Below, one piece after another: positions 1 through 44,167 of a DNA stretch of 64,000 nucleotides. This stretch comes from Diaporthe sp. PMI_573 (lineage: Eukaryota; Ascomycota; Sordariomycetes; Diaporthales; Diaporthaceae). Every line of letters begins with the position of its first letter. Within the stretch, counting starts at the first letter, position 1. The stretch covers positions 248,001 through 312,000 of the forward strand of contig JAJTUP010000029.1 of the NCBI GenBank assembly GCA_021399435.1. The letters are read 5' to 3'. The notes beneath the pieces are model-generated. The model made no database searches, was not told the origin of the DNA, and was given only the letters and a program-made list of their open reading frames with translations. A program made the translations under genes and the position numbers.

Positions 1-671
1 ACGCTCCTGAAGGGCGCCACCGAGGTGACGCCATGGGTTGTCACACACGCCAGCCAGCTCGGGCGCGTGTGGTCCAGGAATCGAAGTCGCTGGTAGAGCT
101 CCCCCGCGGGCGGCCAGAGATTGCAAATGCCGTTTTGAACAAAGGCTACCGTCGACGCGCCATGCAAGTACCGCCTCAGCTTATCGATCTGCGGCATGAC
201 ATCTGTTGCCTTTGTGGCCACGATGAGGTTCTCGATGGGCGTGAGCTCCTGGATTGGACCATTCGTCGGCTTTTCGTCCGTCCACCACTCAACATCAAAA
301 TCCGTGAACCTGTCCACCTTGCCGTGACGTGTCATCTCGATTCCCGGCGTTGAGTCCCAGTGTTCCAGAAGCGACTTTCGATGGACAACCAAGGTGATTG
401 GTGGCTTCGCCGGGATTTGAGAGAGGCTGGTCGCAAGCAGGCGACCCAGGTTCCCGACTCCAAGCACATAAATCCTTTCTGAAGCTGTTCTGTTCTTTGC
501 CGCCTTGTTTGGTGTTGGTGCGGGCGGAAAGGAAGGGCCAGAGGTGAGATTCACGGCTGTCCAAGCAAAGAGCTTCAGCGGAGGGCTGTTATCTTCGACG
601 ATGTTCCTGAGCCAGGCTGCTGGCGTCTGTTGAAGGCCGCCGCTCTGAGCTTGCTTTTGTTTAGACAACAT
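1..671 (-). CDS. Ketopantoate reductase (2-dehydropantoate 2-reductase), N-terminal part, 3' end outside window
   Basis: The ATG is at 671 and the frame stays open to the left edge (223 codons, no intron seen). After an unconserved leader of about 70 residues comes a Rossmann start (IYVLGVGNLGRLLA, GxGxxG), then the ATKATD segment with the conserved lysine, the VQNG loop and ACVTTHGVTS, all typical of the ApbA/PanE family. The enzyme reduces ketopantoate to pantoate with NADPH in pantothenate synthesis. The C-terminal helical domain lies beyond base 1. It is divergent from a pantothenate synthetase gene, so two consecutive steps of one pathway are paired. Some fungal ApbA-like proteins reduce other keto acids, but the neighbour favours ketopantoate. 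Confidence 0.85.
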   Translation of the reverse strand, partial: MLSKQKQAQSGGLQQTPAAWLRNIVEDNSPPLKLFAWTAVNLTSGPSFPPAPTPNKAAKNRTASERIYVLGVGNLGRLLATSLSQIPAKPPITLVVHRKSLLEHWDSTPGIEMTRHGKVDRFTDFDVEWWTDEKPTNGPIQELTPIENLIVATKATDVMPQIDKLRRYLHGASTVAFVQNGICNLWPPAGELYQRLRFLDHTRPSWLACVTTHGVTSVAPFRS

Positions 672-1998
672 CGACTGGGAGTGCCGAACTGTCGCCGTTC
701 GGTGGTCACGGAGCGGGACTCGCCCGGTTCGGTATATGAGTATGCTAGGTCTTGGCCTGAGAAACTGGGTATTCAATTTCTGCACAACAGCCAGTATCGG
801 ATCGTCGGCGTGATATGAAAAATAACTAGTATGTGAGGTATTTTCTGTACGAGTTGGATCAAACCATAAAGTTGACTGCTCAGAGGACTCTTAAGAACTT
901 TGTCGAGAGAATTGGCAAAGGGTTGATTAAAGCTTCCCAGGGTTCGCAATTAGTGTTTCATTCTGCTTAATCTTTAGCCCGACACGCTATTATCCTAGTC
1001 CAGGTACAGTGGAATTAATTGCCGAAAGACAGGTCTAGTAAAGATTAAGCAAGAGGCAGGGGATTGAGAAATAAGCATTGCATTAGATTCCAAATACGTG
1101 CAGACTTCGGTTCCTTATTGCTACGTATCTGATGATTACGTGACACCCAAGCATCATATCGAGCTTAGCTAGGAGGCTCTATACTAGACGAAAACTAATC
1201 ACAGTAGCGTACCTACTTTTCTAAGGGCTGATGATTGGCAATAGCAGTTGCCCGGGAAGAGAACCCGGTCCACGTGCGAAATTTCCATGGACAATACTCG
1301 CTGATAATCAGGTCTGTCGCGCCCTAAAATTCCGATTAGGCCCGGCGGCTAATTGTCTATTCCATCGGGCATAACACTTATTGTGTGCACCATTTGGCTT
1401 GTGGTCGACTATATGGCGGGATTGCCCTGTGGGGAGGAATTCTTCTTCCGATATTTCAGCATCTCCGGACGGCGTGGGATTTAGGTGGCGTATAAGCAAC
1501 CGGAGGCGGCCTTAATTTACTTCCAGCGTTTGCATACCGTTAAAGACAAGTTTGCTGTGAATTCTTTGTGCTTGGCCATCCATGCTCTCTTTGCCATCGA
1601 CAGGGATCCTTTGGCATCGGTCCTGAACCAGAGGACCCACACGGGATTGCTCGGTCACCGGGCAGCATGTGCAGCGGAGCTCGTGTAAGGGTCTTGCTGA
1701 GATCCTGGCAGAGCCTCGGGATATTTTGAGGCCGACCTGAGAACGTCGGGGCCGTACGACCTCCTGCGGCCGAAACGACTTACACGGCCACCTCCCACGG
1801 GCCAAGGGGCAATTGTGGTCGAAGATCGTCCCGGGCTTGCGCTCTCTCGGCAGTGATGACCACATATATAGTCCAGACACTGCCATCGTCCCGGGCAGTC
1901 TGAGAGCTCTCACAAGAGCACACATTTCCCGAGATTACGCACATATTTCCCTTTGCATCCTCGTCATCTGGAAGAGGTCGCGCGCGAACTCGGCAGAA
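672..1998. promoter_or_regulatory. Shared divergent promoter region of the ketopantoate reductase and pantothenate synthetase genes
   Basis: About 1.3 kb between two divergent starts with no convincing coding sequence. The part next to the synthetase is GC-rich and has several CGG/CCG triplets (about 1335-1350, 1465-1510 and 1740-1800), the kind of half-sites Zn2Cys6 regulators bind. No single motif can be assigned. Confidence 0.5.
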
Positions 1999-3081
1999 AT
2001 GACCACTGCCGCAGCCCAGACTATCGAGTCCACGGCCCGCCGGGCCTCTTGCGAGACCATTGCGTCAAGTCAGATTCGCATCCTCCGGACTTTTGACTCG
2101 GTACAGTCGTGGCGTCGCCCGTACCACCGCGACGGCAGCGTGGTTGGATTCGTCCCAACCATGGGCGCTCTGCACCACGGCCACCTCAGCCTCATCAGTG
2201 CCGCAGCTCGCGAGAGCGACCACGTGATCGTCAGCATCTATGTCAACCCGACACAATTTAGCGCCAAGGAGGACCTGTCATCCTATCCCGCGAACTGGGA
2301 CGCTGACTGCCGCCTGCTTGCGGAGCTGGACCGCCAGCTAGCAAGGGATGGCACTAGCAAAGGTCGGATCAGCGCCGTCTTCGCGCCGACCGACAATGTC
2401 ATGTACCCCACGGGCGTTCCAGGCCAAGAGATCGAGTCCAAGGGCAGCTTTGTAACAGTAACGCCAGTCGGCGAGGTGCTCGAGGGCGCGAGCCGGCCCA
2501 CCTTCTTCCGCGGCGTCGCTACACACTGTATGAAGCTATTCAATGCCATTCAGCCTGACAAGGCCTTTTTCGGCCAGAAGGACATCCAGCAGGCCGTCGT
2601 GGTTAAGAAGATGGTCAAGGACTTCCTCCTTCCTATCGACATAACAGTTTGTCCAACCGAGCGCGAGCCCGATGGCCTGGCACTGAGCTCGCGAAACGTC
2701 TACTTGGGCGAGAGGCGGCGGCAGGTAGCCCCAATTTTGAGCCGCGCCCTGCAAGCTGCGGCCAGGCAGTATCACGACGGTGCAACGGACCGCGATGCTA
2801 TCCTGGGCACAGCCAAGCAAGTCGTAGCAGAGACGCAAGCACAGCAGGTGGCTATGCCGAAGGCGAGCAGAGTGAACTTCGAAGTCGATTACATCTCCCT
2901 TGCCGAGCCGGACACGATGGAGGAAGTTGCAGCGCATGTCAATCGCGAGAAAGGCGCCATACTCAGTGGGGCCATCAAGATATTTCCTGTCGAGACACCG
3001 CAGCCGGGCGAAGAGTTGGGGCACAGCGGCGGGCCTCTTGTTCGAATTATTGACAATGTTGTTTTGGAGAGCTCGATTTGA
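1999..3081 (+). CDS. Pantothenate synthetase (pantoate--beta-alanine ligase)
   Basis: Single-exon gene of 360 aa. The frame is open upstream to 1813, but the ATG at 1999 is chosen because homology begins soon after it. It shows the nucleotidyl-transferase signature PTMGALHHGH (residues 53-62), then NPTQF, the FGQKDIQQ segment and LALSSRNVYL, all hallmarks of the PanC family. The family joins pantoate and beta-alanine through a pantoyl-adenylate. The length fits fungal enzymes of 310-370 aa. It is divergent from a ketopantoate reductase and lies upstream of a Zn2Cys6 regulator, a dioxygenase and a PLP decarboxylase. Whether it is the housekeeping enzyme or a second, specialised copy cannot be told from this window. 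Confidence 0.92.
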   Translation: MTTAAAQTIESTARRASCETIASSQIRILRTFDSVQSWRRPYHRDGSVVGFVPTMGALHHGHLSLISAAARESDHVIVSIYVNPTQFSAKEDLSSYPANWDADCRLLAELDRQLARDGTSKGRISAVFAPTDNVMYPTGVPGQEIESKGSFVTVTPVGEVLEGASRPTFFRGVATHCMKLFNAIQPDKAFFGQKDIQQAVVVKKMVKDFLLPIDITVCPTEREPDGLALSSRNVYLGERRRQVAPILSRALQAAARQYHDGATDRDAILGTAKQVVAETQAQQVAMPKASRVNFEVDYISLAEPDTMEEVAAHVNREKGAILSGAIKIFPVETPQPGEELGHSGGPLVRIIDNVVLESSI

Positions 3082-3804
3082 CATGAGTCAAACAAAGATC
3101 CTTCGCAAGTCTCATAGCTGTCTTTCGTAAATTGCTACCTGGTTCCCTCAAAATCGAAGCTGCCCTCTTCAAATACTCAAATAGTAGACGACTTCCATAC
3201 CAGTAGGACCCGTAGCCGTGGCTACGACCGTTTTTACTTACCCAATTCGCATATAGTATGGATCATAAGATAGTTCTGCACCTCGATGTCTAAAGAGTGA
3301 CATATTGTAGAAAATCATAAGACGATATGTCCTGTGGAGGGGTAACCACCATGGTGTACGGCGTCAGATAATAACTGTACCCTGGCTTGCTGTGTATTCC
3401 GGCGCTTCCGCTAAACTTTATATGACATCCCGGGTATAGAAATAGCCGTGGCAGCCCCAATTGCTGTTGTTATTGTTACCTGATATAATTCTTACAAACC
3501 AAACAACCCCACACACGCACGCTAGTACCTGCGGGTTCTGCCGCTTTTAGCCTGCATCCCCTGAATTATGTCGCTACCCTACAGCTGCCCTAGCTAAACT
3601 AGTGAATAAAGTTTGTATTTTCTTGTTGACGCTACAGTGCCAGGGGCCATGCCCCACAAACTCCACATAATTGCAGCGAGACTGGGCAGATACCAGCCAG
3701 CAAGGAGGTAGTTGATAAGTGCTCGGCGAATGTTCTCCGGCGATGAGTCGTGCTAAACTCTCCCATGTCAAAGAACAAACCTCGCGAGCGGGCGAGAACG
3801 AGCC
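3082..3804. other. Intergenic region
   Basis: 3' flank of the synthetase gene and 5' flank of the regulator. Fairly AT-rich; I see no gene, repeat or structured RNA. Confidence 0.5.
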
Positions 3805-5927
3805 ATGGCTAAGTTAATGCCAACCAGCGTCATCACTGCCTGCAAATCATGCCGGTCTCGAAAGGTGAAGTGCGACAAAGTGCGCCCACGATGTGGGCAA
3901 TGCGTGAAGCATAGCTTCGAGTGCGTCTTCGTGCACGAGACACTTAAGAGAGGGCCTCGGAAAGGAGAACTCGAGCGGCTCAAAGCCGAAGTCAGTACGT
4001 TCGTCCGTCTCCTGTCTTTATCATTCCCCCGGAACTTTCTTCGCATGTAAGGATCGTGCGTACTAACGCTTTCTGAAGCGACTCTCAAGCAGAAGCTAGC
4101 AGTGCAACAAGCCGGAGACCAGTTCACATCGCCGACTGTTTATACGGCAGCTCCTAGCGAAGTGGCTGCGAGCCAGGCAGCAACGTCTGAACGCGCTACA
4201 CGGCGTAACTCTCAGACTGACCAAGAACCTCATCACGCGAATCACTGCAGCAATGTGGTGTCTGATGTGTATGCTGGCACCGGTAATGACAGCGGCCAGG
4301 GTTGGGATGCCAGAGCGGACCCGGAGTTCATGGCGTGGCTTGACCTCACTCTCCCTTTGACAGACCTCTGCTTGCCAATGGAGCCTTCCAGCCGGAACTC
4401 GTACATCCGGGACACGAGACAGCTGGGGGTCAGTTTGAACAAACTGGTTAAGGCGGACTTGTAAGACTTGACTGACACCCCCATAAACGTGGTCGCAACA
4501 CTGACTTGTCCCTTCGTGGTAGGGAAGCAATATACTTTGATAGGGCACAGCCCTTTATGCCTTTACTGCACAGAAACCGCTTTCACTCTTGGGCCGACCT
4601 TGATGTAATCACGCCGAGTCAGGACTGCTTGCGGGCCGCGGTATGGACAGTCGCAGCAGCGCTTTGCCCTCGCTTCCACGACATGTACATGAGCCTCTAT
4701 AAGCACACCAGGCAGCTCTTGCAGGCTCTGGATGGTGGCGAGCAGGGGCACTTGTGGGCGCCTGTGGGCACATTACAGCTTGAGCAGATCCAAGCATGGC
4801 TCCTCATTGGTCACTGCGACTTGATCCGGCACGACCGCCAAGTGGCTATACTTTCAGCTACGAGAATATCTCGCCTCGTACAGGCGGCACGTTTCAACTT
4901 GCGGCATACAGGAGATAGTATGGCCGACGATAAGGGGCTCCTAACACCCAACTGTGCAGGCAATGGCCCAGACGTCACATTAAAGGAGGAGAGAGGTCGG
5001 GCCTTCTGGGTTGCGTTCTGCTTCGACCGGATGGTCCACTCACTCGACCACTGTCATTTCACTTTACAAGACGAGACGGTAAGCAAGGCCCTCTCTCGCG
5101 GCTTGGCTCTTTGGCTAACCAAAGCCCCGATTCTGTTGGTCACAATCAGGCATATTTACCACTACCGTGGCCCGAGGCCGCATACCAGGCTTCAGAGCCG
5201 ACTGTAATGCATACCCTGACCGACGTACTCGAAGCACCACGTGTAGACTTGCACGCCTGCTTCGCAGAAAGCATAGTCACGATTAGCCTTTATGGACGTT
5301 GTCTAACCCACAGATGGCTTGCGGCGGCGGCGAAGGCGCGGAAGACGCCAATGCCGCCCGACATAAGCAGCAGCGCAGCGGCCGGTGACGGCGAGTGCCA
5401 AAGGCGGCACGCGTGGCTCGTCCAGGCCCTGGACCTGCGGTTCCGGTCCGGAGGCCAACCCCCGCTTGGGGCTTCTACGTCTTTGCTCATCCTCGCTCAC
5501 CTCTTGAACCACGGCTGCGTCGTGCACCTGCTCGAGACACTCGTAGAGCACATGGACGACCCGGAGCTGCACGTCGATCAGGTCTACAATGCCTACAACT
5601 CTGTTGTCAACATAGCGCAGTTTACAACCACGCTTCCTCAAGCTGCCTGTTTCAAGGTAAGTCCATGCTCGCCCATGGTTGCGAATGTCTTTGTCCTATT
5701 CGAAGCGTTGTTGACTCGCGAGCCTCCAGATGCATCCACTCGTACCGATCGTCTTGTCACAAGCGCTCAACTTTCTGAAGAGGTACAGGTATATTCTAGA
5801 GCGAGACCGTGACCCGGCAAGCATAAACCAAACCTTGCAATGCTTGGTGCTGCAGTTGGAGAAGTTCGAGGATGTCCATATTGTAGCGAAAGACTTCCTG
5901 GTGAAGTATCGGTCCGATACCTGGTAG
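3805..5927 (+). CDS. Zn2Cys6 transcription factor with fungal-specific middle homology region
   Basis: Five exons: 3805-3994, 4079-4460, 4523-5078, 5150-5656, 5730-5927. All phases agree and give 610 aa. The Zn2Cys6 cluster is at the N-terminus with cysteines 13, 16, 23, 30, 33 and 40, followed by a basic linker. The middle part (YFDRAQPFMPLLHRNRF, later ERGRAFWVAFCFDR) is the fungal transcription factor domain of gluconate/xylanase-regulator type. The first intron uses GTACGT at 3995; the earlier GTCAGT at 3991 breaks the frame. It sits in the middle of the putative pantothenate-type gene group and is the obvious pathway regulator (inference). Confidence 0.88.
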
Positions 5928-6639
5928 TGTTAGCGAAATGTCCATGCACCACATACTCCTGTGAAGTCACCACCCTATATTTCGTGATTTGATTGCATGC
6001 ACAACTAGCACAACGAGAATCTCGGACTCACCACAGCGATCGTGAGAAGAAGCCCTCTTATTTGCACAAGAACGCAATTCACCATAGATGTTTTGGCTCT
6101 GTCTGAATGTACTGTGACATCAGCCATAGACCAAACACTTCCAGATCGTGGTCAGCCCTATCTTTCAAGTATATTCCATAATTGCTATCATCTTGCTCAA
6201 TACGGAAGAAGATATCATAATATTGATACCTTGCTATTTATGTATACCGTGTTCTTCAGATCATTGCCGAAGTCGTGAAATTGAGGCTAATTCGTGTTAA
6301 AGGGGAGAAAACCTTGGAAGACTTCGAGAGGGGGACTTTGCGTGGCCCCACAATCTCGATGTCACAAGCGATACGTTGCACACAACTTACACAACTCACA
6401 CGACTCGATTTCTACACTATGAGCTCTGTAGAAGTTGGTATCAGCATTTATATCTTACTAAGTCCAGCATAAAACACAATTCCAGAAGTTGTTTCTGTAA
6501 CAGATATCTAAATCAGCCTGCTAATTTTTACAACCCAACTTTGCATGGTGAGTTTTACACTTTGAACCTGGTCGGAATTGTTCCGACCATAATTTACAGC
6601 TTCTTCGATCCATTGATAGTCAGTTCGACGCAAGGCACC

Positions 6640-6828
6640 ACGTGACCCGGCCAGGAGACATGGCCGAACTGCGAGTCAGAAGGCGTCCGATGCTCCCGAT
6701 CGGCCACAAGTTACTTCGAAAGCGAATGCCTTCTAAGGTACTACGTGACCGAGTCAACAAGACAATGGCCGAACTGCGTGTCAGGGGGCGTCCGATGCGT
6801 CCGGTCGGCTACAAGTTACTCCGAAACG
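6640..6828. repeat. Diverged direct repeat of about 85 bp in the dioxygenase promoter
   Basis: Copy 1 is 6640-6724 and copy 2 is 6743-6828, both starting ACGTGACC and both sharing ATGGCCGAACTGCG and ACAAGTTACT. Each copy carries a dyad of the CCGATCGG/CCGGTCGG type. Both copies also encode a similar short peptide in the plus frame, which probably only reflects the duplication. The spacing (about 103 bp) and the CGG-type dyads make regulator binding sites possible (inference). Confidence 0.75.
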
Positions 6829-7021
6829 CTCCCGCTGCAGCTCTCGTAGTTGTCGCCAGGGGCTAATGAGTCGCCCCCTAGACTCCAAACCCGAGCCTGG
6901 CACGTCAACGCTGCACAGCAAAGGCAGACATGGATTAACGTTAGCTTGCCAACTTTCAGCAGTCGTAAGTACGGCTCTGGCGATTTTGCTCAAACACGCG
7001 TAAGCTCAGCATTATAATCAA

Positions 7022-7028
7022 TATAAAT
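7022..7028 (+). promoter_or_regulatory. TATA-like box of the dioxygenase gene
   Basis: TATAAAT about 100 bp upstream of the ATG at 7123. It supports that start over the in-frame ATG at 7027, which would overlap the box. Confidence 0.5.
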
Positions 7029-7122
7029 GCTGGGAAGCGATGCTTCTATAGTGAAAAAGTGTTGGCTGACAATTCATTCGCCATCAGCAAACCCCAGACA
7101 CAGTCCTCATTCCCAGATCAAC

Positions 7123-8082
7123 ATGTCTGCAGTCACGTCTAACACCCCGCTTTCTTTCACTCCTCTACACGAGACCTTTGGAGCCGAAGTGCATGGAATG
7201 CCATGGCAAGAAACAATTCCAGACCCCATAATCCAGGAGATCAAGGATGCCGTCCACAAATATGGCGTGCTCGTTTTCCGCGGCGCCAACCTCGACAACG
7301 ACGAGCACATACGGTTCTCTAGACACTTCGGCGACCTGGACAATGTCAAGGCCTTCATGAAGGCTGGCCGAAGTATGCGATTCCCCGAACAGCCAGAGAT
7401 ATTTGATCTCTCGAACCTGGATGAGAAGGGAGACCTAATGACCAACCCGGACTCGATACGGGTGGCGGCGTACAAGGGCAACTTTCTGTGGCACGCGGAC
7501 ATGGCCTACAACCCCCGGAGGTGCTCTTACGCCATACTGCGCGCGGTCGAGCTGCCCCCACCGGGAACTGGCGGAGAGACAGAGTTTCTGGACACTCGCA
7601 AGGCTTTCGAAGATCTGCCGCCGGGGAAGCAGGCCCAGCTCGAAAAGTTGGTGACGAATAACTCGTTCTACCACCAGCGGAAGCTGGCGGCGCCCGAGGC
7701 CTACGCCGATCTTGAGCCGCTTGCGTCACCTATGTCGCGGCACCGGCTCGTGCCGCTCCACGAACAGTCTGGACGGAAGAATCTATTCATCACCACATGG
7801 GTGCATCACTTTGACGGCAAGACCAAGGAGGAAAGCCTTCCCTTGGTCAATGAGCTGCTGGACTGGGTATCCAAGCCGGAGTACAAGCTCACGGTCCAGT
7901 GGCACAACAACGGCGACCTGCTCATGTGGGATAACAGGGCAGTCATCCACCGTGCGACGGATGGCGGGTCGTATGCCTTCAAGTACAGGCGTGACGTGCG
8001 GAGGACTACGATCAAAGATGACGGCGCGTCTGCGTACGGCGAGAACGGAGCTGGAGCCTGTTGGCAGGTTGGTTTGTCCTGA
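7123..8082 (+). CDS. Fe(II)/2-oxoglutarate-dependent dioxygenase, TfdA/TauD family
   Basis: Single exon, 319 aa, with good start context (ATCAACATGTC). The family core is complete: iron ligands H124 and D126 (WHADMAYN), distal H276 (AVIHRATDGG) and arginines at 290-294 for the 2-oxoglutarate carboxylate. TfdA/TauD enzymes hydroxylate, dealkylate or desaturate small acids such as taurine, phenoxyacetates and amino-acid derivatives in the cytosol. The substrate cannot be read from the sequence. Between a pantothenate synthetase and an amino-acid decarboxylase, a carboxylate such as pantothenate or beta-alanine is plausible (inference). Ascomycetes carry many paralogs, so a link with its neighbours is not certain. 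Confidence 0.9.
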   Translation: MSAVTSNTPLSFTPLHETFGAEVHGMPWQETIPDPIIQEIKDAVHKYGVLVFRGANLDNDEHIRFSRHFGDLDNVKAFMKAGRSMRFPEQPEIFDLSNLDEKGDLMTNPDSIRVAAYKGNFLWHADMAYNPRRCSYAILRAVELPPPGTGGETEFLDTRKAFEDLPPGKQAQLEKLVTNNSFYHQRKLAAPEAYADLEPLASPMSRHRLVPLHEQSGRKNLFITTWVHHFDGKTKEESLPLVNELLDWVSKPEYKLTVQWHNNGDLLMWDNRAVIHRATDGGSYAFKYRRDVRRTTIKDDGASAYGENGAGACWQVGLS

Positions 8083-9142
8083 TCGTGCATACTTGTCGGA
8101 ACAGAGGGATTAACGGCGGGAGGAAAGCTCCGCCTCCGGGCCTTCGGAGAAGAATTCGCAGCCCCTCCAGGCTCAGCCGGCTTCTCAGCGGTGTGGTGTG
8201 TGTAGACAGCTTTCCAATCGTGACATATAATGGAATTCGCAACTCGAGTGTATGAATGAACTTCTTTACTCTCTAAGAATTCTGTGACTGCGGCCCACAA
8301 GCATATGGGTGGCGCTTGCAGAAAGAACCAAAGGGAAGGGCTAGGGACCACGGCATGGCGTACCCGTTCATCTCCTTCGAGTGAACTTGATGCTGTGCAG
8401 GGTATTGGTGATGCAGGAAACTGATTCTAATTCAAAGCACTGCACGCATATTCGCAACAAGCAGCATTGCGACTATAGAAAAGAGTGACTAGGGACATGC
8501 AGTAACGAAATGACTCCCCATAGCGCCATGCCCACGATGGAAACCATTCAGATGTTGTGGAAGACGTGCATGGCCTCGGCCCGAGCTCGGGGAGCCTGCG
8601 TCCCAGCACCCTTATTACTACGCCGCTGTTTCATTCAACATGCGTGTTCGTAGCGTGCCGTCAGAAATCGCAAGATATCTTTGTTGCGCCGTTGCCAGAT
8701 TCGGGCCCGTTGGTGAATTTCCTCGGCTCACTTTACATAAGAGTGGCGGGGGGCCGTCTTCAAACATTATCCCGCGACGCTGTTATAGTAGCGCCTACGC
8801 TCTACTTACTCCGACCAGCCGGCCGTCCTGACGTCGGCGCAACCCTTCCCGAGGTCCCACACGGGCCTGCGGAGTCCGGGCCGGGGCCGACTCTACCAGA
8901 TACACGATTGCGATGTCGGCCATAAGCGAGACCGTTGTGCACCGGGCGACCTCGATAACGCAGTATCTGGTGAGAGAGGCTTGGGAAGAGAGAGTGGTTG
9001 TCAACAGACGTTCTCGGTCCACAATGACAGCACTCATACGTCCCGGCTCGTGATTAAATACCCAGCGCTGGGCACAAGCGAGATGAAGATCCAGTTGGAG
9101 TGTTAAGGTTTCCCTCGTAAGATCGAAAATCAAGCCATCACA
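8083..9142. promoter_or_regulatory. Intergenic region, promoter of the PLP decarboxylase gene
   Basis: About 1 kb. Small open frames are present in several frames, but none has homology I recognise or codon use like a gene. GC-rich CCGG/CGGCCG stretches lie at 8815-8890. Confidence 0.45.
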
Positions 9143-10888
9143 ATGTCTCCGACCACTAGCCTTCATCGCGCACAGGAAACAGCCGATGTTAGTGCAATCG
9201 CCTCCCCCGCTCCATCATAATGTTCATGAAGACTAACGGACCAGCTCGTGGATGCGGTGAAATCTCTAATTGTCCCCTTTATCGCCGCAGCCGACCAAGC
9301 AGCATCGACAAGAGCGACTGGCGAAAGCGACACGGCTGGCGTCCAAGACCCTCAAGCTCGAAACGTGCTTGTGAGGTCGTACGGGCCCAAAGCACTTGCA
9401 CAACAACTCAGCTTCTCCTTGCCAAAGCAGGAAGGAAAGGGCCGAGCCGGTTTCGTGGAGACCGTCAAGGATGTCCTCGAGTACAGCGTCAACACTTGGG
9501 ACCAAGGCTTTCTGGACAAGCTCTCCGCGAGCACCAATGCCGTATGGTGCAGCCAGGAGGCGTGTTCTTTAGATGTGAGAGGCTGACGCAGGAATGCAGG
9601 TTGGAGTCGCCTCGGAGCTACTGCTCTCTGTCCTCAACGCAAATGTCAGGCCCCTTATGTCCCATATATCGATCGATATACGACTCGGCTCACTAATACC
9701 AGAATACAAATCCAGGTCCACGTGTATAAGGTCTCGCCCGTGCTTACAGTGGTTGAGAAGACGACGGCCCGAGAACTGGCGGCTCTCTTTGGCTTCAAAG
9801 GTTCTCGTGCGGGCGGGATCTGCTGTCAGGGAGGGTCAGCCTCGAACCTGACCTCGCTGGTCACAGCACGCAACGCGCTGTACCCAGACTGCCGGCTTCA
9901 GGGCAACAGGGATAAGGATTTCGTCGTCTTCACCAGCGTCGGCGGCCACTACAGCGTCGAGAAGGCAGCCCGCACAATGGGGCTAGGTTCGGCTGCCGTC
10001 GTCAAAGTCCCGGCCGACTCGGTGGGCCGCATGGACCCGGCAGCGCTCAGCAGCGCCGTCGTAGCGGCCCAGCAGGTTGGCCGCACGCCGCTCTATGTCA
10101 ATGCCACGGCGGGCACGACGGTGATGGGCGCATTCGACCCGCTCGAGGCCGTTGCCGCCGTCTGCCGCAAGTTCGGTATGTGGCTGCACGTTGACGCGTC
10201 ATGGGGAGGGCCGACTGCCTTCTCAACCACGCATCGCTACAAGCTCGCGGGATCTCACCTCGCCGACTCCATCACGGTCAGCCCCCACAAGATGCTCAAC
10301 GTGCCGCTGACGTGCTCGATGCTCCTCACCAACGATACGGCCGTGTTCCATCGTGCCAACACTCTCCCTGCCGACTATCTGTTTCACGCTGACGTTGAAA
10401 GCGAGCACGGAAACAAGGGAGAGGGCCAGGGCGGTGTGGAGGCAGACGAGGTATGGGACATGGCCGACTTGACGCTGCAGTGCGGCCGTCGCGGCGATGC
10501 CCTCAAACTCGCGCTGGCTTGGATCTACTACGGCGCCACAGGCTTCGAGCGCCAGGTTGACCATGCCTTCAGCATGGCCAGCTACCTGGCGACCGTCATC
10601 CATGAGCACCCGGACTTCGAACTTCTGTCCCCCAACCCACCTCCCTGCCTGCAAGTATGCTTCTACCACGCGCCGGGCGGAAAGGCGGGTGATTGCGCGG
10701 CAAAGAACACGAAGCGGACGGCACAGCTGGCCAGGGCACTCATGGATCGGGGCTTCATGGTGGACTACGCTGCAGGAGATCGGGGCAGCTTCTTCAGGGT
10801 GGTAGTCAACTTCCAGACGCTGAAGAGCACTGTTGAGGGACTGGTCAAGGCACTCGATAGCGTCGGAACAGAGTTACTCTATTCATGA
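9143..10888 (+). CDS. Group II PLP-dependent amino-acid decarboxylase (glutamate / aspartate / cysteine-sulfinate decarboxylase-like)
   Basis: Four exons: 9143-9187, 9245-9541, 9600-9644, 9716-10888, giving 519 aa, the usual length. The short third exon restores the family segment around VASELLLSVLNANVHVYKVSPVL. PLP-binding features: HVDASWGG with the pyridine-contacting aspartate, and SPHKMLNVPL with the Schiff-base lysine at about residue 321. The family removes the alpha-carboxylate of glutamate (GABA), aspartate (beta-alanine) or cysteine sulfinate (hypotaurine); motif reading alone does not say which. Two genes away is a pantothenate synthetase that needs beta-alanine, so aspartate 1-decarboxylase activity is the attractive guess. 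Well-studied yeasts make beta-alanine from polyamines instead. Confidence 0.9.
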
Positions 10889-11569
10889 CTTCGCGTTCTT
10901 TTATCGCTTGTTCGCACTGCAGAGATGCGGGCTTCGCCGCAGGTAGAATATATGTAGATACTCTGGCTGGTTTAATTGCTTTGATCTCTACTTCCAAGCA
11001 CAGAATGATTTAAAGACAGTTGGCCACTTCCTCACTTCGCAGTTTCTATTAATATTCAGTATAGTATATATAACTGCCTAATCACTGTCTAGTAGTTGGG
11101 AAGGGTATTACGAGGCTTGCCGACTAGGTATTAGTTAGGACCTATAAGGCTGCTAGTGTGGCACGGCTGATGAACCAATTATAAAAGCGGCAGCGCCGAC
11201 CGCATCACAGGTATTACATATGTACACACACCCCTAGATATGTAGGCTTGATTCACAGCCACTGGCACTGCCTTCAGCACTGCCTGAATATCTACATATG
11301 TAGGTAGACAGCCCCCATGGTGGGGTCGGGCTCAATGAGGCTTCGCACCTAATTCATCTGCTCTCGGTGAGCCACCTGTCAGCACCACTACCCTAGGTAA
11401 ACCCTCTCATTGTGAGATCCTGCTTCCACGCTTCTGCTCCATTGTAACACTTCATCAAGTAATCGTCAACACCTAGGGTGACTAAATCTCTCAGTACGTG
11501 GATTTTATCTTGTTATTGTATGGTGAATTGGACTCATTATCTATCACTAACACCTCAGATCCTTAGACC
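10889..11569. other. Intergenic region
   Basis: AT-rich spacer with a small palindrome CTACATATGTAG near 11292 and poly-CA near 11223. No gene seen. It separates the pantothenate-type genes from the NLR-like genes. Confidence 0.45.
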
Positions 11570-12667
11570 ATGACAAGTTCGGAATCAGACCCCCCACCGG
11601 CTGACGATTTCACCGTCGGCCTGGTCTACGTCAAACCGTTGGAGATGCGGGCACTCACCATGATGCTAGACGAGCGGTATCGTTCTGGGATGGCCAGAGC
11701 CCATGGCGACAATAACGATTACGTTCTGGGTCGCATTGGCGACCATAACGTCGTCGTCGTGGGGCCCCCGCGTGGGGAGCAAGGGACCGTTGCCACCGCT
11801 CAGACTGTCACAAGCATTCGCTTGACGTTCCAAAATGTTACCGTTGGGCTCCTAGTTGGAATCGGCGGTGGCATTCCACACTATCCAAAGAACGACGTCC
11901 GCCTCGGTGACGTCGTCGTTGGAGCGCCTGAGACCGGTCCTGCTGTGGTTCAGTACGACTTTGGAAAGAGGACAGCTGACGGGAGGTTCGAGATTACCGG
12001 AACCCTCGCTAAACCGCCGCGCCTGTTGCTCAATGTCGTCAATAAAGTCGAGGACAAATATGATTACTTGCAAGAGGGCGATGATGATGTGCTCAAGGTC
12101 CATCTGTCTCGTTTTCTGCAGTACCCAAGATTAAGGAGAGAATACGACAGGCCCCAGGTCCCAGACAGGCTCTTCCAAGCATCTTTCACCCATCAACCCG
12201 AAACCGTGTGCGCCGACCATTTAATCGACATGGAAGTGATCCGAGAGGCGAGGGAGAACAAAGACCATATTGTCGTTCACTACAGTACGATTCTATCCGG
12301 CGATACGCTCATGAAAAACCCAGCGGAGCGTGATCTTCTGAGCGGGAAGCACAACAATGCGCTCTGCTTGGAAATGGAGGCCGCTGGGCTCACGGACGTG
12401 TTTCCGTGTTTGGTTATCCGTGGAATCTCGGATTATACGGACTCCCACAAGAACGACGCCTGGCAGAAGTTTGCGGCTGCGGCGGCAGCAGCATATGCGC
12501 GGGAGATCTTGCTCAATATGGCGAAACAGATGCCCCGATCCAAGGACCGTGAGCGCCAATACACAGGTCCGAAAAACAGTCATTTGATGTCGGTAGGCTA
12601 TGCCGGTCAAATGACGACCAATAACTTCGGCGACAATAATGGGCACATGACAAACCACTTCGCATAA
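11570..12667 (+). CDS. Stand-alone PNP_UDP (nucleoside phosphorylase superfamily) protein with Asn/Gly-rich tail
   Basis: Single exon, 365 aa. Residues 10-320 form the MTA/SAH-nucleosidase-like fold used as N-terminal effector in many fungal NLR (STAND) proteins: VGIGGGIP, GDVVVGAPE, CLEMEAAGL (ribose binding) and RGISDYTDSHKND with the catalytic aspartate. Usually a NACHT or NB-ARC and repeats follow; here the protein ends after a 30-residue polar tail rich in Asn, Gly, Met and Thr (NNFGDNNGHMTNHF). So it is either a truncated NLR or a free effector. The tail composition recalls short amyloid signalling motifs that pair effectors with NLRs in fungi, but I cannot match it to a named motif. 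Its neighbours are other self-recognition relics. Confidence 0.85.
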   Translation: MTSSESDPPPADDFTVGLVYVKPLEMRALTMMLDERYRSGMARAHGDNNDYVLGRIGDHNVVVVGPPRGEQGTVATAQTVTSIRLTFQNVTVGLLVGIGGGIPHYPKNDVRLGDVVVGAPETGPAVVQYDFGKRTADGRFEITGTLAKPPRLLLNVVNKVEDKYDYLQEGDDDVLKVHLSRFLQYPRLRREYDRPQVPDRLFQASFTHQPETVCADHLIDMEVIREARENKDHIVVHYSTILSGDTLMKNPAERDLLSGKHNNALCLEMEAAGLTDVFPCLVIRGISDYTDSHKNDAWQKFAAAAAAAYAREILLNMAKQMPRSKDRERQYTGPKNSHLMSVGYAGQMTTNNFGDNNGHMTNHFA

Positions 12668-37246: not shown

Positions 37247-38761
37247 TCAGAGTTGATCCTGTATTTCCAACCCTCTGAAAAGTTCCTCCACAATCTTACC
37301 CAACAATTCTTCTACAAAGGACTTCTCATAGAAACTCTGGTTAAAAGAGGCACCCAGCCGTAGTTCATCCCTCCAGCTCCAAACGTGGAATTGTACACAT
37401 CTATCAAGCCTGTCCGTGCCAATCGACACATCAGATACCTCAACCTTAGGGGCCAGGGGATCCGAGGGGGACTTGTACTCTCTGTTCAAATAGGTCTCGA
37501 CCTTTCCAAGCCCGCTCAAGTCCGGCGCCTGTATCGATGGAAGGCCCTCGGGGGCTGGAGTATTGAAGAGCACAGTCGTCCTTTGCAGATATGGCTCGGC
37601 TAGCTCCATCAAGCTGACTTGCGTCCCATCAGGTGCCTTCCAAAAAGCGGTCAAGTCTCTGGTGTAAACAGAAGTCATCTCATGAGCGACCTCCTCAAAC
37701 GTCTTTGCCTTGCCATCTTCGCCCGGGATTACTCTTTGGACGCAAATAGGCAGCCCAGAGAAATAGAGACCAAACGTCAACTGGTCCTCTGGGGCGGCCC
37801 CTGCTCCTATAATCGACTGACGAAGATCCACGGGGAAGAATGCAGCATAGGATTTGGCGAGGGCGTGTTGGGGAAACTCCGCAGTGACACGCACGATGGC
37901 GGCGTGTACCGCGCCTGTGAAGCTGATCTTCTTTGCTCGACGGGCCTCCGCAATCTTCGCTGTCTGCGAGACGTTGAGTCGCGTTTCAACGCGAGCACTG
38001 GCGCCTGGATGTGCTGTCTCGGAGTTGGGCCGAGTCGGTAGACCAATGCTCGGTACACCACGGAGGAACTCGCCAACTAGAGCGTCAGCGCCGGCTTCGA
38101 GTCGAAGAGCGTGTGTGTCCTTCTCGTCCTGCGACTTTTCCGCCTCTGTGCCCTGTTTTTGTCTCCAAATACGAGCCACGCTCTCAAGGTTGGGTGGTAG
38201 GGACTGGCTAGAGGGCAAATCTGCCGTGGGATGAAGCGGAGCATCCTCCAGCTTTGTGCGAAGAATCTCGGCCAGGTTGGTCAAAAAGACGTGGCCTAGT
38301 CTGGTCATCCCGATACCATCGAGACGCCAATGCGAAGAGCGGATGACGACTTGGGATGACCGGGGTAACCAGTGACAGGTGGCAGTTGGTGTTGGCCGGA
38401 GAAAAGAAAACAGACTCTCTGCATTCGCTTGCGTTTCATGCACAAAAAAAGTATCCTTGGTCCAGCGCGCGGCGTCGAAGGTGGGAATCGCTAAAATCTC
38501 TCGCGCAGGGGCTTCGGGCTGCTCCTGACTCGCCTGTTCTTGAGCAGGGCAGATGATTGAGCCAATAGCCGGATACTGACGACGGACTTCTTGCCAAGTT
38601 CTTTGGATATAGGGCAAAAGCTCGACAGTCCCTGACACTCGCAAGCCCAGAGCAAGATGGACAGCCCAGTGCTCCCGTTCGAGAGGTGCTCCAAGGTCGG
38701 CAAGTTTTTTGAAGAAGATTTCCAAATTGCCCAGCGGGCGTGAGGAGCTATTTGTCGACAT
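37247..38761 (-). CDS. Tri3-like / condensation-superfamily O-acyltransferase
   Basis: Single exon, 504 aa, from the ATG at 38761; the frame is open 104 codons further upstream without likely homology. The catalytic HxxxDG motif is SHWRLDGIGM at about residue 180. The chloramphenicol-acetyltransferase-like second half (FPVDLRQSI, FHVWSWRDELRLGASFN) fits the trichothecene 15-O-acetyltransferase (Tri3) and related fungal acyltransferases, which acylate hydroxyls of terpenoids. Cytosolic, no targeting signal. Its location at the edge of a group with P450, UbiA-type enzyme and SDR suggests it decorates that product (inference). The acyl donor is not evident. Confidence 0.7.
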   Translation of the reverse strand: MSTNSSSRPLGNLEIFFKKLADLGAPLEREHWAVHLALGLRVSGTVELLPYIQRTWQEVRRQYPAIGSIICPAQEQASQEQPEAPAREILAIPTFDAARWTKDTFFVHETQANAESLFSFLRPTPTATCHWLPRSSQVVIRSSHWRLDGIGMTRLGHVFLTNLAEILRTKLEDAPLHPTADLPSSQSLPPNLESVARIWRQKQGTEAEKSQDEKDTHALRLEAGADALVGEFLRGVPSIGLPTRPNSETAHPGASARVETRLNVSQTAKIAEARRAKKISFTGAVHAAIVRVTAEFPQHALAKSYAAFFPVDLRQSIIGAGAAPEDQLTFGLYFSGLPICVQRVIPGEDGKAKTFEEVAHEMTSVYTRDLTAFWKAPDGTQVSLMELAEPYLQRTTVLFNTPAPEGLPSIQAPDLSGLGKVETYLNREYKSPSDPLAPKVEVSDVSIGTDRLDRCVQFHVWSWRDELRLGASFNQSFYEKSFVEELLGKIVEELFRGLEIQDQL

Positions 38762-40145
38762 ATTGAAGGTGTATGAAGGATGGCTGCCAATCGTGTTGAG
38801 ACTTCGAATCCAGGAGTAAGGGCAAAGACGACCGGCTCCAAGCCCGAGGACTACGAATGCAGTCAGGTCCGCTGTTGGAGTGGTCCGTACTGGTGTCTTT
38901 ACTTTCCGAGAGGCAACACGCCACCACTCAACCCTTGCTACTTGGGTATTATAACGGTCAAGAGTTTCACGAGACGGAACTGTCCGCAACAGAGCATGCA
39001 CCCCGTGGTCCCCTTGGCAAAGTGTTGGTAAGTTCGTGTTCCGAGAGATCCAGGCTTGGAGCCTGCATGTCAAGTGGACCCGGAATTTTCATTCCTGGTC
39101 TTTGTGAAACCGATATTGGTAAAATCATATGAGTGAGACCTTTCTTGCATAACACAAGGTCAACTGAGGGATTGACTGCAGCACACTGACTGACTGCAGG
39201 TGGTGATATCCACATCTTCGCAGCACGGGACCAAGTCCGTAAGCTTGCGAATCTTGTGCCTGGTTCTTGAGTCGGTCTCGTTCTAAACACACCCCTGATG
39301 TCGTCTGACCTGGTGGAACCCCAACCACTCCAGCTACATGCCCGTATGTCCGATGTGATGAGAAGTGCAACCTGCCTGTTCCGCACAACGCCGAGGTCGA
39401 AAGTCGCCCATCCGAATGTTACAGTCGAACTAAGTTCATGTTTGAGGATTAATAAACAATGGGACCCATCAGTAGCACGATCTGGACCACAAAGCTAGTT
39501 GGCTGCTTAAGGCAGTCTCCAGGGCCGTCAGGAGTTCTCTCCACAATCCATCGGACGACAATTTATTAGCCGCGGATGTCACACAAACCGGCCAGAGCAT
39601 GTAGTGTAGAAGCATGCCCTCTGGGGGCGGATACAATATCACGGCCGCTAAACCTTTCCGTAGTCCAAGTGGATCCCTTGCACAGTGCGTGCTATGCGCA
39701 GATCTGACGAGTCAATCGTCTTGTATTGTCTATCCGACAGGCAGCGGCGGAGTAAATGCACAATGCATCCTTCAGGAGTCTCAAATCTTACCACCGGTGA
39801 AGGATCATATCTCAAAAGGAAGCTCGGTCCTAACCTCGGTAACAATACTATTTATGAACGTGGTGGAGACCGGATGCGTTTCCAGGCTCTCCCACGACGT
39901 CTAGGCCACTCCGTAGACCACTGGGGCGGGTACTGCGGCGGGTACTGCGGCGGGTTCTGCGGCACATCCTCCACAAACTTCGATTGACGAACTTCATCTT
40001 CAACGCAGATCGAGTCATGCGATTCTGAGTACCCGCCAAGTCCCCGAACCAACTGCATATCGCGAATCTGGTCGGTAACACCCACGATCCCATCAAGTCG
40101 AGGCTTAACTTGCGGTACAGAAGCGGCACAGCGACCACTATCACG
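38762..40145. promoter_or_regulatory. Divergent promoter region with a short tandem repeat
   Basis: Between the acyltransferase and rhodopsin-like gene starts. The only structure seen is the 12-bp triplicate at 39925-39960. No gene. Confidence 0.4.
39925..39960. repeat. Three tandem 12-bp units (GGCGGGTACTGC)
   Basis: Units 39925-39936, 39937-39948 and 39949-39960; the third has one change. About 190 bp upstream of the rhodopsin-like gene. Confidence 0.85.
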
Positions 40146-41568
40146 ATGTCGAAAATACCGACCGCCGAGGAAATAGCCTACATGACGGCACATCCAGATG
40201 ATTCTCTGGTCCCAGATATCATAGCATGTTGTGCGATATGCGGCGTCGCGTCCATCGTTTTCATCCTGATGCGTCTCTGGTCGCGAAAGCTCATTCACGG
40301 CCGGATAAAGGTCCAAACAAGTGACTGGTTGCTGCTCATAGGTTGGGTATGTTTCTGTACACCGATACTGACAATTCGCCACTGACTTCGCACTCCAGGT
40401 CTTCTTCGCGGTGTTCGATATTTGCTTTGCCTTGACAACCAAATATGGGGGCGGACGTCACATCATATACATAACGGATGCTCGCATGTTGCAAATTGTA
40501 AGTCTAAAGGATTTCTTGTGAAACCATTGCACCTTGTATCGCCCTCTTCCATACAAACGTTCTCTGACTTGTTTCGGGTGACAGCTCAACATTGCAGACG
40601 AGAACACGTACTGTTTCGCCATGGCTTTGATCAAGATCAGCATCCTGACGATGTACGGCGAGATCTTTATATCCCAACGCTTTCGATATTGCCTCTGGAT
40701 GGTCGGTACATTCATGATGTGCTGGGCCATCGCGTTTTCCTTCGCGGGCATCTTCCAATGTACACCGATCGAATATAGTTGGGACATAACAATCGCGGGT
40801 GGAACCTGTATCAATTACGGAGCTGTCGTGTTGGCCGCTGGTGCCCTCAACATAGCCACAGACTTCACGATTCTGCTGATGCCGATACCTTTGGTTTGGC
40901 GACTGCAAACATCCAGATCGAAAAAGTGGCAGATCATTTTGACTTTCTGCATGGGCAGCAGGTACGTCACCCTTCGGGATGCTTAGGCAAGGTTGGCAAA
41001 TGTCAAGCCTGATCAGATCATTGCTAACGAATGCTTCCCGCTCACAGTGCCTGTATTGTGAGCATTGTCAGATTGGCTTACGCAGAGAAGGTTGGCACCA
41101 CCGCCGATGGGAGTTGTAAGTTGCACCAGTCTCCTGTTACCCATCATTATTGGATTTGGTCTTGTTTCGGGGCTGACGCGTGTGGTTTCAGGGGATAACA
41201 TCCCGGCCGGGCTTCTGTCTACTGCTGAACTCATGATTGGCATTTTAGCAGCATCTATGCCAACATATCGCCCACTGTGGCGTCATCTGCGGCACGATGA
41301 GAATCATGGTAGCACTGATGCAAGCAACTCTGGTTACGGTTACCGCTTTGACAATTCGAAAAATATAGTGAACATCACTGGGGGCCGTGGAAGCGTGCCG
41401 CTTTCAGGCGTTGGGATCAACGTCACCAACCAGGTCGAGATGAGCGTTCATCCAAATCACCGTGACGAGTGGATGCGGGTTTCTGATGAGACGGACGATG
41501 ATCAACATCGTCTGACAACTCAATACGGCCGGGCCGTTTCAACACCAGAAGGCGTACAAAGAAGTTGA
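40146..41568 (+). CDS. Fungal rhodopsin-domain integral membrane protein (PTH11-like topology)
   Basis: Five exons: 40146-40346, 40399-40497, 40585-40961, 41048-41115, 41192-41568; 373 aa. Seven hydrophobic helices with family landmarks: TSDWLLLIGWVFFAVFD after helix 2, KYGGGRHI, ENTYCFAMALIKISIL, MCWAIAFSFAGIFQCTPIEYSWD, ATDFTILLMPIPLVWRLQ, a short fourth exon (SIVRLAYAEKVG), then ILAASMPTYRPLWRHL and a polar cytosolic tail. This abundant ascomycete family is mostly uncharacterised; some members act as GPCR-like sensors. It faces the P450 gene tail to tail. A role in the biosynthetic group is unproven. Confidence 0.85.
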
Positions 41569-42209
41569 TCTCTTTGAAAACGTTGTTGTCTTCTACCCCT
41601 AAAAAATTCGCAGTATATAATCAGTCTTTAAGATTTGTGATTGGGAAGTCCATGAGGGAAATTTAATTCCGAGGTTGCTACGCAGATCCACTTCCGCTAC
41701 CTGATCACATCGATCTGTGAATTGCTATTCAATTGCATGCAAGTTAGGCGGAGACGGAGACGCGCAAGTTACGCGCTCAAGTCGAAGAGGGCACTTTGAT
41801 TTCAAGAATTTTCTTCTCCTTTAATACTCAAGCCAATGCTTCCCAAGTGTTTAGTCGTCTGAACCTGTGGAGCTGCAGGACGAAAGGTCTGGTCTGGCTC
41901 ACCGGTGTACACATGTAGTCTGTCCACGAGGAGGCCGAGTGTCTCTCGGATGAAATGTATTGGGTTATTTATTTTGCCGTGATTGGAACTACTAGGCCGA
42001 CCAGAGGCTTTCAAATCACAACATTAGGCAATGCGGCACCTGTAGCCGACTCATCATCAGGTATTTCGACCATGGATGATTACGTGCATCGACCTGCTCC
42101 AGTCAGCTTACTCTCGTTGAACTAGGGCCTCACACTTATTCAAGTCTCGTAGATATTCATGAACTCTAGTAGCTAAGCTATGTGTACTCCTTGAGACAGT
42201 GATAACGCT
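41569..42209. other. Convergent intergenic region
   Basis: 3' flanks of the rhodopsin-like and P450 genes, AT-rich. Nothing recognised. Confidence 0.4.
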
Positions 42210-44167
42210 TTACATGTCCTTCCTTCGCTTGAACTGAAGCATGGGTCCCTGTTGCTCGCTGACAAAACGGCAGAACAGTTGGAACTCATCTTTCCTCTCC
42301 CTGCCCTCAACCCCGGTTCCTGTACCCTCTCCGACAGGGTTGCTGGCGTCCATCCTCATATCGAATTGCCAAAGCAAGCGGGCTATGATATATGAAACTT
42401 CTTGGTAAGCCATGTGTTTGCCGATACACGAGCTTCGCCCAGCACCAAAGGGTGTGAAGCCTAGGGTTTGACCGACACCGGCTATCAAACCTCGACCTTC
42501 ATCGCCCTCGTTCTTCTCTGAATCACCATTTGTGCTATTCATCCATCGCTCTGGCCTGTAGACAAGGGGGTCTGGGAAGATCTCCTCGTTGCGGTGCATG
42601 CTGTAGTGTGGTATTCCGAGATCTGTGCCTTCAGGGAAGACCTCTCCGTCCACAATCATACCACCAGGACCGACTCGACGTGGCAGAATGCTTGGTACTG
42701 GCGGACTGAGACGCATCGATTCATCGATGCAAGCAAACAGATACGTGACGCTTTGGAGTTGCGGGCTGGCAAATTTAATTGGGCATTTGCCATCCTCAGC
42801 ATCAGTGACCTTGAAATTTTCCCGTAATTCGGTCGTAAGTCTCTTCAGCGCATGGGGGTTGTGGGCCAGATAGAAGAGGGTCCCGGTGGTAGTGGTGATC
42901 ATTCCGTCCGTGCCGCCGCTGTCCGAAAATGCACATCAGCATCCACCTCGATAGAGAGACGGTAGTTCTCGAGCAAACAGAGTTATAGGGATGGCAGGAC
43001 AAAAATACTCACATGATGAAGAGACTAGCCTCCGATACGAGCTCGTCGTCAGTGAAGCCCCTGCCGGTCTTAGGGTCACTCGACTCCAGGAGCGCCTGCC
43101 AGATGTCCGAGCGAACAACGCCTTCTGCCCTTTCTTCGAGTCGCTTGTGTGCAAATGAGCGGCTGAGCGCCATGAGACTACCAATGCCGACGATGAGTTC
43201 TTTGAAGATCAGCCGGTGTAAATTGCAGAAGAACAATGACTGCATGTGTCCGACGAGATGAATGCCTGCCACGCCTTTCGGAAGATCGTGGACGTAGTGA
43301 CGATTCTCCCCTTGCCGCTGAGTGTTGAAGTGTTGACTGAAAGTCACGTCGCCCATCACATCAGCGATGCAGAACGCAATACGCTCCCCCATGTTGTGAC
43401 CATCGCTCCAGTCCGGGTCTGTGTCTTCAAGTGCATTGCCATATCTTGGGACTGTTTGGTCAAGTTTCTGAATCAAGTAGTCGACATGAGGTGTCACGCG
43501 GTTTTCCAGGCCCTTCACTGCGGTTGTCGTCAACGCCGAAGCGTTGACCCGGCGTCTGAAGGCATGGGCCTTGTGGTCAACCGTGGTGAGTGACATCTCT
43601 GCGCCAAAGAACCGTTTGAAGGAGCTGTATGCATTTGACTTGAAAGTATTTCCTTTGACATCATGCAAATCTCGCGATGCTGTAGGAGAGTTGATGGAAA
43701 GTCGATTTGGTCCAAAGCGAACGAATTTGCCTTGTGGGGAATCAGCACCACTGTATTTCTCCGACCTCTTGTACGCGGGAATTCATGATCATCTTACCAT
43801 GCTTCTTGTGTTGTTTGTGCAGTTCCAGGTGACGGCTACCGTCCGCAATCCAGTACACCGTATACCAGTCTGTACAGGCTGCCAAGAGTGGCCCCGGATA
43901 TCTTGCGAGTGGGTGGAAAGCTACCCGATATGACAACACGAGCAGCACCTATAAGTGATCTTCTATTAGTTCTCTTGTCCGATATTGTGTTTGCTCACAT
44001 AGCTACGCGGGTCCACTGACATATTCTCCCAATAAACACCCAACGAGAATAATGTATTTTAGTACACTTTTGTGCTGGTGAATCTGTGCCGCCTGACCAA
44101 TGATGGACACGGCGAGTCCAGCTGCTGTCAAGATGAATACTGTCGCAGAAGCAGCGTGAGGAACCAT
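42210..44167 (-). CDS. Cytochrome P450 monooxygenase
   Basis: Four exons: 44167-44021, 43948-43798, 43730-43013, 42918-42210; 574 aa. The donor GTCAGT at 44020 gives a smooth membrane anchor (about residues 9-60) leading into FHPLARYPGPLL. The I-helix is FIIGGTDGMITTTTG, the K-helix ExxR is ESMR in DESMRLSPP, the PERW motif is present, and the heme loop is FGAGRSSCIGK with the thiolate cysteine. All essential parts are intact. ER-membrane protein needing a reductase; the substrate is probably the product of the adjacent divergent UbiA-type enzyme (inference). Confidence 0.93.

Follow-up and report, generated by a model that had tools for sequence, protein, structure and literature searches.

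Pantothenate mimics are pursued as anti-infectives. According to published work, pantothenate kinase activates CJ-15,801, and PPCS is blocked both by this compound and by hopantenate (PMC12172042, PMC7770189, PMC12570885); CJ-15,801 blocks coenzyme A (CoA) synthesis in Staphylococcus aureus. Fungal gene clusters can hold a decarboxylase for beta-alanine, such as PleC, which is described as homologous to DtxS4 (PMC12177691), and a review reports no PanD homolog in the fungi that it covers (PMC11428646). Among the papers listed in our open-access literature searches, none showed biosynthetic genes for CJ-15,801, as the initial annotation of the locus described here had stated, nor any for hopantenate, nor a gene cluster for any pantothenate analog; our comparison with CJ-15,801 is accordingly made at the level of the compound. 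Here we analyze five consecutive genes of Diaporthe sp. PMI_573 that encode a ketopantoate reductase (KPR), a pantothenate synthetase (PanC), a Zn2Cys6 regulator, a TfdA/TauD-type Fe(II)/2-oxoglutarate (2OG) oxygenase, and a group II pyridoxal phosphate (PLP) decarboxylase. They lie at the left edge of a 64,000-nt stretch (contig JAJTUP010000029.1, 248,001-312,000; contig C140 below) that we refer to as the window.

With moderate confidence, we read this gene set from its sequence as a dedicated route to an oxidized pantothenate-type amide, encoded by an accessory cluster of duplicated, specialized pantothenate genes. We favor this reading because the genome has second copies of PanC, KPR, and the decarboxylase elsewhere, the cluster-type PanC and decarboxylase sequences form firm, narrow clades, relatives in other fungi occur on equal-sized contigs, and the catalytic motifs are retained in PanC, KPR, and the oxygenase. 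The AAD-2/TfdA fold of the oxygenase, the precedent of PleC for the decarboxylase, and the N-termini of the PanC proteins also argue for it, as does, weakly, a shared CGG-N12-CCG element. The cluster would then be a short candidate pathway of four enzymes and a regulator, in which a vitamin pathway has been copied and retuned to yield its own antimetabolite, has possibly moved between fungal lineages, and includes an amide ligase of the PanC type whose pocket is new.

Five consecutive genes and their copies elsewhere in the genome

The initial annotation listed a reductase, a synthetase, a regulator, a dioxygenase, and a decarboxylase as consecutive genes, and Pfam matches together with gene models confirm this; all five have open frames. 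The 5′ part of the KPR gene (671..1, minus strand; Pfam ApbA 1.6e-20 and ApbA_C 3.1e-23) reaches the left edge of the window, and the gene continues across it, with its remainder at C140:247358-248000 and 438 codons in total. A divergent intergenic region of 1327 bp (672..1998), with CGG-N12-CCG at 709 and 1717, separates it from the PanC gene (1999..3081, plus strand), which has no intron and encodes 360 amino acids (Pantoate_ligase 1.6e-89). The Zn2Cys6 transcription factor gene (3805..5927, plus strand) is modeled with five exons (3805-3994, 4079-4460, 4523-5078, 5150-5656, and 5730-5927) encoding 610 amino acids, and its Zn_clus (9e-12) and Fungal_trans (5.6e-07) domains were matched on separate pieces of open reading frame (ORF). 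It is followed by the oxygenase gene (7123..8082, plus strand; 319 amino acids, no intron; TauD 2.1e-50) and by the decarboxylase gene (9143..10888, plus strand; Pyridoxal_deC 3.6e-69), modeled with four exons (9143-9187, 9245-9541, 9600-9644, and 9716-10888) encoding 519 amino acids. The seven modeled introns of the regulator and decarboxylase genes all have GT..AG borders.

The initial annotation had proposed a search of the genome for second copies of PanC and KPR, and had named as a case against itself that the genes here might be the only pantothenate genes present. We searched the genome of the same strain (83.7 Mb, 217 contigs) and found two PanC loci, the second of which, on contig C163, is 57% identical to the cluster PanC. 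The closest other KPR copy is on C141 (48%), and ApbA_C occurs at seven loci with the cluster KPR counted. For the decarboxylase, the closest other copy is on C149 (61%), and there are two close loci and one weak match genome-wide, while the best other copy of the oxygenase is on C174 (47%). Because PanC, KPR, and the decarboxylase each have a further, diverged copy, on three other contigs in all, we reject the possibility that the cluster holds the genome's only pantothenate genes. No further pantothenate gene was recognized beside the C163, C141, and C149 copies when the ORF lists were judged by eye. Because these second copies are scattered over other contigs, the ordinary genes are dispersed and those in the window come in addition to them. 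Five contiguous genes that include a Zn2Cys6 regulator and are additional to copies elsewhere have the layout of a fungal biosynthetic gene cluster.

Could the five genes have come together by chance, in an accessory part of the genome that also contains HET and PNP-type genes? The flanks fit such a view: by Pfam, the neighbor to the left is a HET gene (L006 3712-5097) and that to the right is a PNP_UDP_1 gene (window positions 11567-12664), and both families are typical of variable fungal regions. However, the expected chance count of PanC genes that have a KPR as well as a decarboxylase of this kind no more than four genes away is roughly 4e-6 to 8e-6, assuming 15,000-20,000 genes, and the cluster-type proteins form separate clades with partial linkage elsewhere, as judged from equal-sized contigs. 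We consider chance neighborhood very improbable.

Two further loci were noted in the course of the genome search. A decarboxylase-family (PF00282) copy at G000:C210:68600-69856 has 8 TAG and 8 TAA codons within the match and appears to be a duplicate that repeat-induced point mutation has altered. PanB matches occur on C135 and C2. The match on C2, a second PanB-like gene (L034 801-1473 and 3768-4889, two ORF pieces), has in its vicinity a bZIP-like ORF and another that by eye resembles a flavin mononucleotide-dependent alpha-hydroxyacid dehydrogenase, and this gene and its surroundings are a possible separate small cluster.

Active-site residues and predicted chemistry

We sought homologs of PanC, the oxygenase, and the decarboxylase in other genomes and used the best 120 of 2005, 174, and 1605 protein matches, respectively; statements below about other proteins refer to these matches. 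The PanC matches comprise six close ones (P0001-P0006, 75-92% identity) and 114 others at 61-70%. The cluster PanC retains the active-site residues of its family, with H59, H62, N83, Q86, K194, and Q198 in the window protein corresponding to His44, His47, Asn69, Gln72, Lys160, and Gln164, which are described as conserved in PanC of Mycobacterium tuberculosis (Mtb) (PMC5772511). At the thresholds used, fifteen positions set the cluster clade apart from the other PanC rows listed. His176 stands out most among them: it is present in all seven cluster-clade PanCs, where the 115 others listed have Val (111) or Ile (4). Aligned by way of the C163 copy, His176 falls on Mtb Val142, a position that is not a formal defining residue of PanC but is given as an active-site residue and a hydrophobic docking contact (PMC11317409), in an active site whose floor is described as mainly hydrophobic (PMC7770189); the hydrophobic residue is thus lacking in the cluster enzyme. 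Because this change is common to all seven clade members, the amide made by the cluster PanC may be other than pantothenate. The cluster PanCs also differ at their N-termini, where basic residues number 1-4 and acidic residues 1-2 among the first 30; the corresponding medians are 5 and 0 in 77 of the 114 other PanCs (those in which the anchor was found). This composition would be compatible with a different location, without proving one.

Compared with E. coli KPR (1ks9/2ofp), the cluster KPR retains KLxxNxxxN and SSMLQD...TEI...NG, motifs whose residues have functional roles in the enzyme, although the alignment is weak (E 2e-9 to 3e-9); GxGxxG is present as well, and the Pfam ApbA and ApbA_C matches agree with this assignment. 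In the oxygenase, H124, D126, H276, R290, and R294 are invariant in 34 aligned sequences chosen from the window and its 120 matches, with the window protein included. The first three residues form the HxD...H iron triad of TfdA/TauD enzymes and R290 is the 2OG-binding arginine. The fold match of the protein is to AAD-2/TfdA, and TfdA-type enzymes act on a CH2 that adjoins a carboxylate.

The decarboxylase also has an altered pocket. Its Ser109 aligns with a Ser of GAD, where CSAD has Phe, and the C149 copy from the same genome has a Tyr that aligns with the Tyr of GADL1. In a published account, the GAD Ser helps hold the glutamate side chain in a model, and the major difference of GADL1 from GAD is Tyr in place of this Ser, with a smaller cavity, CSAD having Phe (PMC7367687). 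Among 122 aligned rows, Ser is found in all three cluster-clade rows that cover the site (the other four of the seven do not cover it), and among the 115 other rows listed, 113 of which have a residue there, the counts are Tyr 108, Thr 4, Cys 1, and Ser 0. The protein P0320, named dtxS4 by its source, has Tyr at this position. The cluster enzyme therefore has the GAD-type Ser and not the aspartate-type Tyr of GADL1, and its overall sequence is equally close to CSAD and GAD. This one residue suggests a substrate larger than aspartate, such as glutamate, and speaks against a supply of beta-alanine. The initial annotation had the decarboxylase making beta-alanine from aspartate, a claim that is weakened here; its wider interpretation is supported in part, by the extra copies, the narrow PanC and decarboxylase clades, and the partial linkage suggested in other fungi by equal-sized contigs, and is weakened by the decarboxylase and PanC pockets.

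From these features, we infer the reactions, their order and substrates, their regulation, and their purpose as follows. The KPR would reduce ketopantoate or a close 2-oxo acid, and the decarboxylase would convert an acidic amino acid to an omega-amino acid, either aspartate to beta-alanine or, going by the pocket, glutamate to gamma-aminobutyric acid (GABA). PanC would convert the hydroxy acid to an acyl adenylate and then couple it with the amine to give a pantothenate-type amide. The second arginine of the oxygenase would grip the free carboxylate of this amide while a nearby CH2 is hydroxylated or desaturated, and the Zn2Cys6 protein would activate the genes. Such a pathway would yield an antimetabolite of pantothenate comparable to CJ-15,801 or hopantenate; because both of those compounds block PPCS, either would act as one.

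Within this route, the pocket residues bear on a GABA-based or otherwise altered pantothenate, in which glutamate is decarboxylated and PanC joins GABA with pantoate to give hopantenate, or uses another, more polar hydroxy acid. The Ser of the cluster decarboxylases and the His of the cluster PanCs both favor such a product, as does the description of phosphorylated hopantenate as a blocker of PPCS. Set against this, specificity is here read from single residues, the Thr of four relatives places small residues outside the cluster clade as well, and no hopantenate-making fungus is among the papers listed in an open-access literature search. We regard this version as possible but less likely than not. 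It is likewise possible, but not what we would expect, that the pathway has been neofunctionalized to the extent that the ligase, with a His in its acid pocket, and the glutamate-type decarboxylase have both changed substrate and together make a mimic other than pantothenate, such as oxidized pantoyl-GABA, with no nonribosomal peptide synthetase (NRPS). If so, fungi would have a class of antimetabolites of the CoA pathway assembled by a PanC-type ligase, and different fungal subclasses would share its history.

Relatives in other fungi, regulation, and surroundings

In a decarboxylase tree of 46 rows, the seven cluster-type sequences form one clade (support 100/99) that is sister to Neoarthrinium moseri (95/82), within a wider group (97/94) containing Seiridium, Truncatella, Pestalotiopsis, Neopestalotiopsis, and Xylariales sp. 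PMI_506, so that the cluster decarboxylase groups with Amphisphaeriales. The C149 decarboxylase of the same genome pairs with Pleurostoma (95/88). A sister relationship between the cluster decarboxylase and the C149 copy was rejected by the approximately unbiased (AU) test (p-AU 0.0036; the grouping had been fixed in advance, and the C149 branch is long). By taxonomy, Seimatosporium (Amphisphaeriales), N. moseri, and Microdochium nivale belong to Xylariomycetidae and Diaporthe to Diaporthales. The PanC tree of 43 rows also has a cluster clade (100/100), placed with weak support (90/82) on the side of Xylariomycetidae and other rows, with the Microdochium rows, also Xylariomycetidae, opposite. 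Neither of two PanC constraints was rejected: one grouped the cluster PanC with the C163 copy (p-AU 0.166), and the other set the cluster, together with C163 and 12 rows selected as lying outside the Xylariomycetidae side, apart from the other 23 rows (p-AU 0.362). The C163 PanC (L008 5282-6589) has a branch of 0.99, against a median of 0.096 for the other rows of the tree. Because the PanC constraints were not rejected, horizontal transfer is a lead and not a result; going by the trees, transfer between lineages is plausible as a lead for the decarboxylase, and for PanC it is unproven.

The decarboxylase tree bears on CJ-15,801 or an isomer as the product, for which beta-alanine and PanC would give pantothenate and the oxygenase would desaturate C-alpha/C-beta to an enamide. 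CJ-15,801 is, to our knowledge, the only oxidized pantothenate natural product, and its producer belongs to the order with which the cluster decarboxylase groups. References in the literature bear out the statement in the initial annotation that CJ-15,801 comes from Seimatosporium, and related Fe/2OG-dependent oxidative decarboxylation is described in plant alkaloids with styrylamine ends (PMC12871766). Against this product, the decarboxylase lacks the aspartate-type Tyr, the PanC pocket is altered, no Seimatosporium protein is among the named matches listed for PanC, the oxygenase, or the decarboxylase, and sequence fits desaturation and hydroxylation alike. We regard CJ-15,801 itself as possible but somewhat doubtful; the pockets point at least as well to an analog that is based on GABA or altered in another way.

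The initial annotation had also proposed checking synteny in other fungi. The PanC (P0002) and decarboxylase (P0241, the top decarboxylase match) of Diaporthe australafricana are both on contigs 317177 long, the oxygenase (P0124) and decarboxylase (P0242) of M. nivale are both on contigs 2569905 long, and another oxygenase (P0122) and decarboxylase (P0252) are both on contigs 6858 long. These equal sizes suggest linkage of PanC with the decarboxylase in D. australafricana and of the oxygenase with the decarboxylase in M. nivale and on the P0122/P0252 contig. The public gene model of P0241 has stretches that resemble unspliced introns of the window decarboxylase gene, and because of this apparent intron retention, the annotation of cluster genes in public genomes may be faulty.

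Several points weigh against a dedicated route to an oxidized amide. Placement on the same contig is taken from equal sizes and not from the DNA itself. No cluster-clade PanC of M. nivale is among the best 120 of 2005 PanC matches, its listed PanC being 64% identical, and an oxygenase and decarboxylase may accordingly occur there without a dedicated PanC; likewise, no D. australafricana oxygenase is among the best 120 oxygenase matches. The grouping of the cluster PanC with the C163 copy is not rejected, as given above. The cluster contains no PanB, which was matched only on C135 and C2, and pantothenate kinase is at a single locus in the genome, with no duplicate that could serve resistance. 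Finally, pleosporacin is described as also being made without PleC in a heterologous host (PMC12177691); by analogy, a cluster decarboxylase can be dispensable in such a host.

The missing PanB bears on whether the locus is simply a regulated second pantothenate set that raises pantothenate or CoA, with the oxygenase being incidental. The retained catalytic motifs of KPR and PanC agree with this, and a pathway-specific regulator would suit an induced supply. Yet a supply cluster would be one without PanB, the oxygenase gene is between those for the regulator and the decarboxylase, relatives of oxygenase and decarboxylase are on equal-sized contigs in two other cases, and pocket changes are unexpected in a plain copy. 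We consider plain supply unlikely.

The same two oxygenase-decarboxylase cases, together with the lack of a cluster-type PanC among the M. nivale matches listed, would suit an arrangement in which PanC and KPR are resistance genes: decarboxylase and oxygenase would make a small inhibitor of pantothenate synthesis from an amino acid, and the additional PanC, its pocket changed, would protect the producer. Resistance copies that arise by duplication of a target enzyme also typically have an altered pocket. This arrangement is nevertheless quite unlikely in our view: PanC and decarboxylase are on equal-sized contigs in D. australafricana, KPR would need a role besides PanC, and the product class of the decarboxylase is the amine substrate of PanC. 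We retain the dedicated route to an oxidized pantothenate-type amide as the preferred reading.

With regard to regulation, each of the four intergenic regions within the cluster contains CGG-N12-CCG. Among 1000 dinucleotide shuffles, all four regions contained the element in 0.2% for N12 (P 0.002) and in 2.8% for any gap of 0-24 (P 0.028), and we regard the shared element as a predicted sign of co-regulation that is suggestive only. No longer motif was common to the four regions. Upstream of the oxygenase gene is a direct repeat pair of 62 nt (6660-6721 and 6765-6826; 87% identical, 105 nt apart), with a CGG-N12-CCG at 6806. Each repeat has the core CGG..ACAAGTTACT.CGAAA.

Beyond the two flanking genes, a Pfam scan of 18 further flanking ORFs found pantothenate-related genes in none of them (shorter ORFs were judged by eye); a major facilitator superfamily transporter about 39 kb to the left of the cluster is among the ORFs scanned. 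Farther into the window, the stretch 37250-52641 combines two P450 pieces, a fungal transcription factor, and a UbiA prenyltransferase with a weak PapA_C (acyltransferase) match that falls just short of its cut-off, and is possibly a second biosynthetic cluster.

Comparison with known systems

The cluster resembles pantothenate biosynthesis (PanE/KPR, PanC, and aspartate decarboxylase) in its enzyme families and in the catalytic motifs retained. It differs in that the genes are clustered, the pockets of PanC and the decarboxylase are changed, an oxygenase and a regulator are added, and PanB is absent. The L-aspartate decarboxylases DtxS4 and PleC of fungal NRPS clusters are likewise described as cluster-borne PLP decarboxylases for a small amine (PMC12177691). 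Compared with them by description, the cluster in the window has no NRPS that we could see, a PanC ligase as the partner, and Ser109 in the decarboxylase. The cluster oxygenase differs from the TfdA and AAD-2 dioxygenases in forming a fungal clade.

At the level of compounds, CJ-15,801, which we take to be a pantothenate-type amide oxidized in its amine part, is like the proposed product, and its producer Seimatosporium belongs to the subclass, Xylariomycetidae, in which the cluster decarboxylase nests. With glutamate as the decarboxylase substrate and a PanC that accepts GABA, the cluster would make hopantenate (pantoyl-GABA), known as a synthetic drug.

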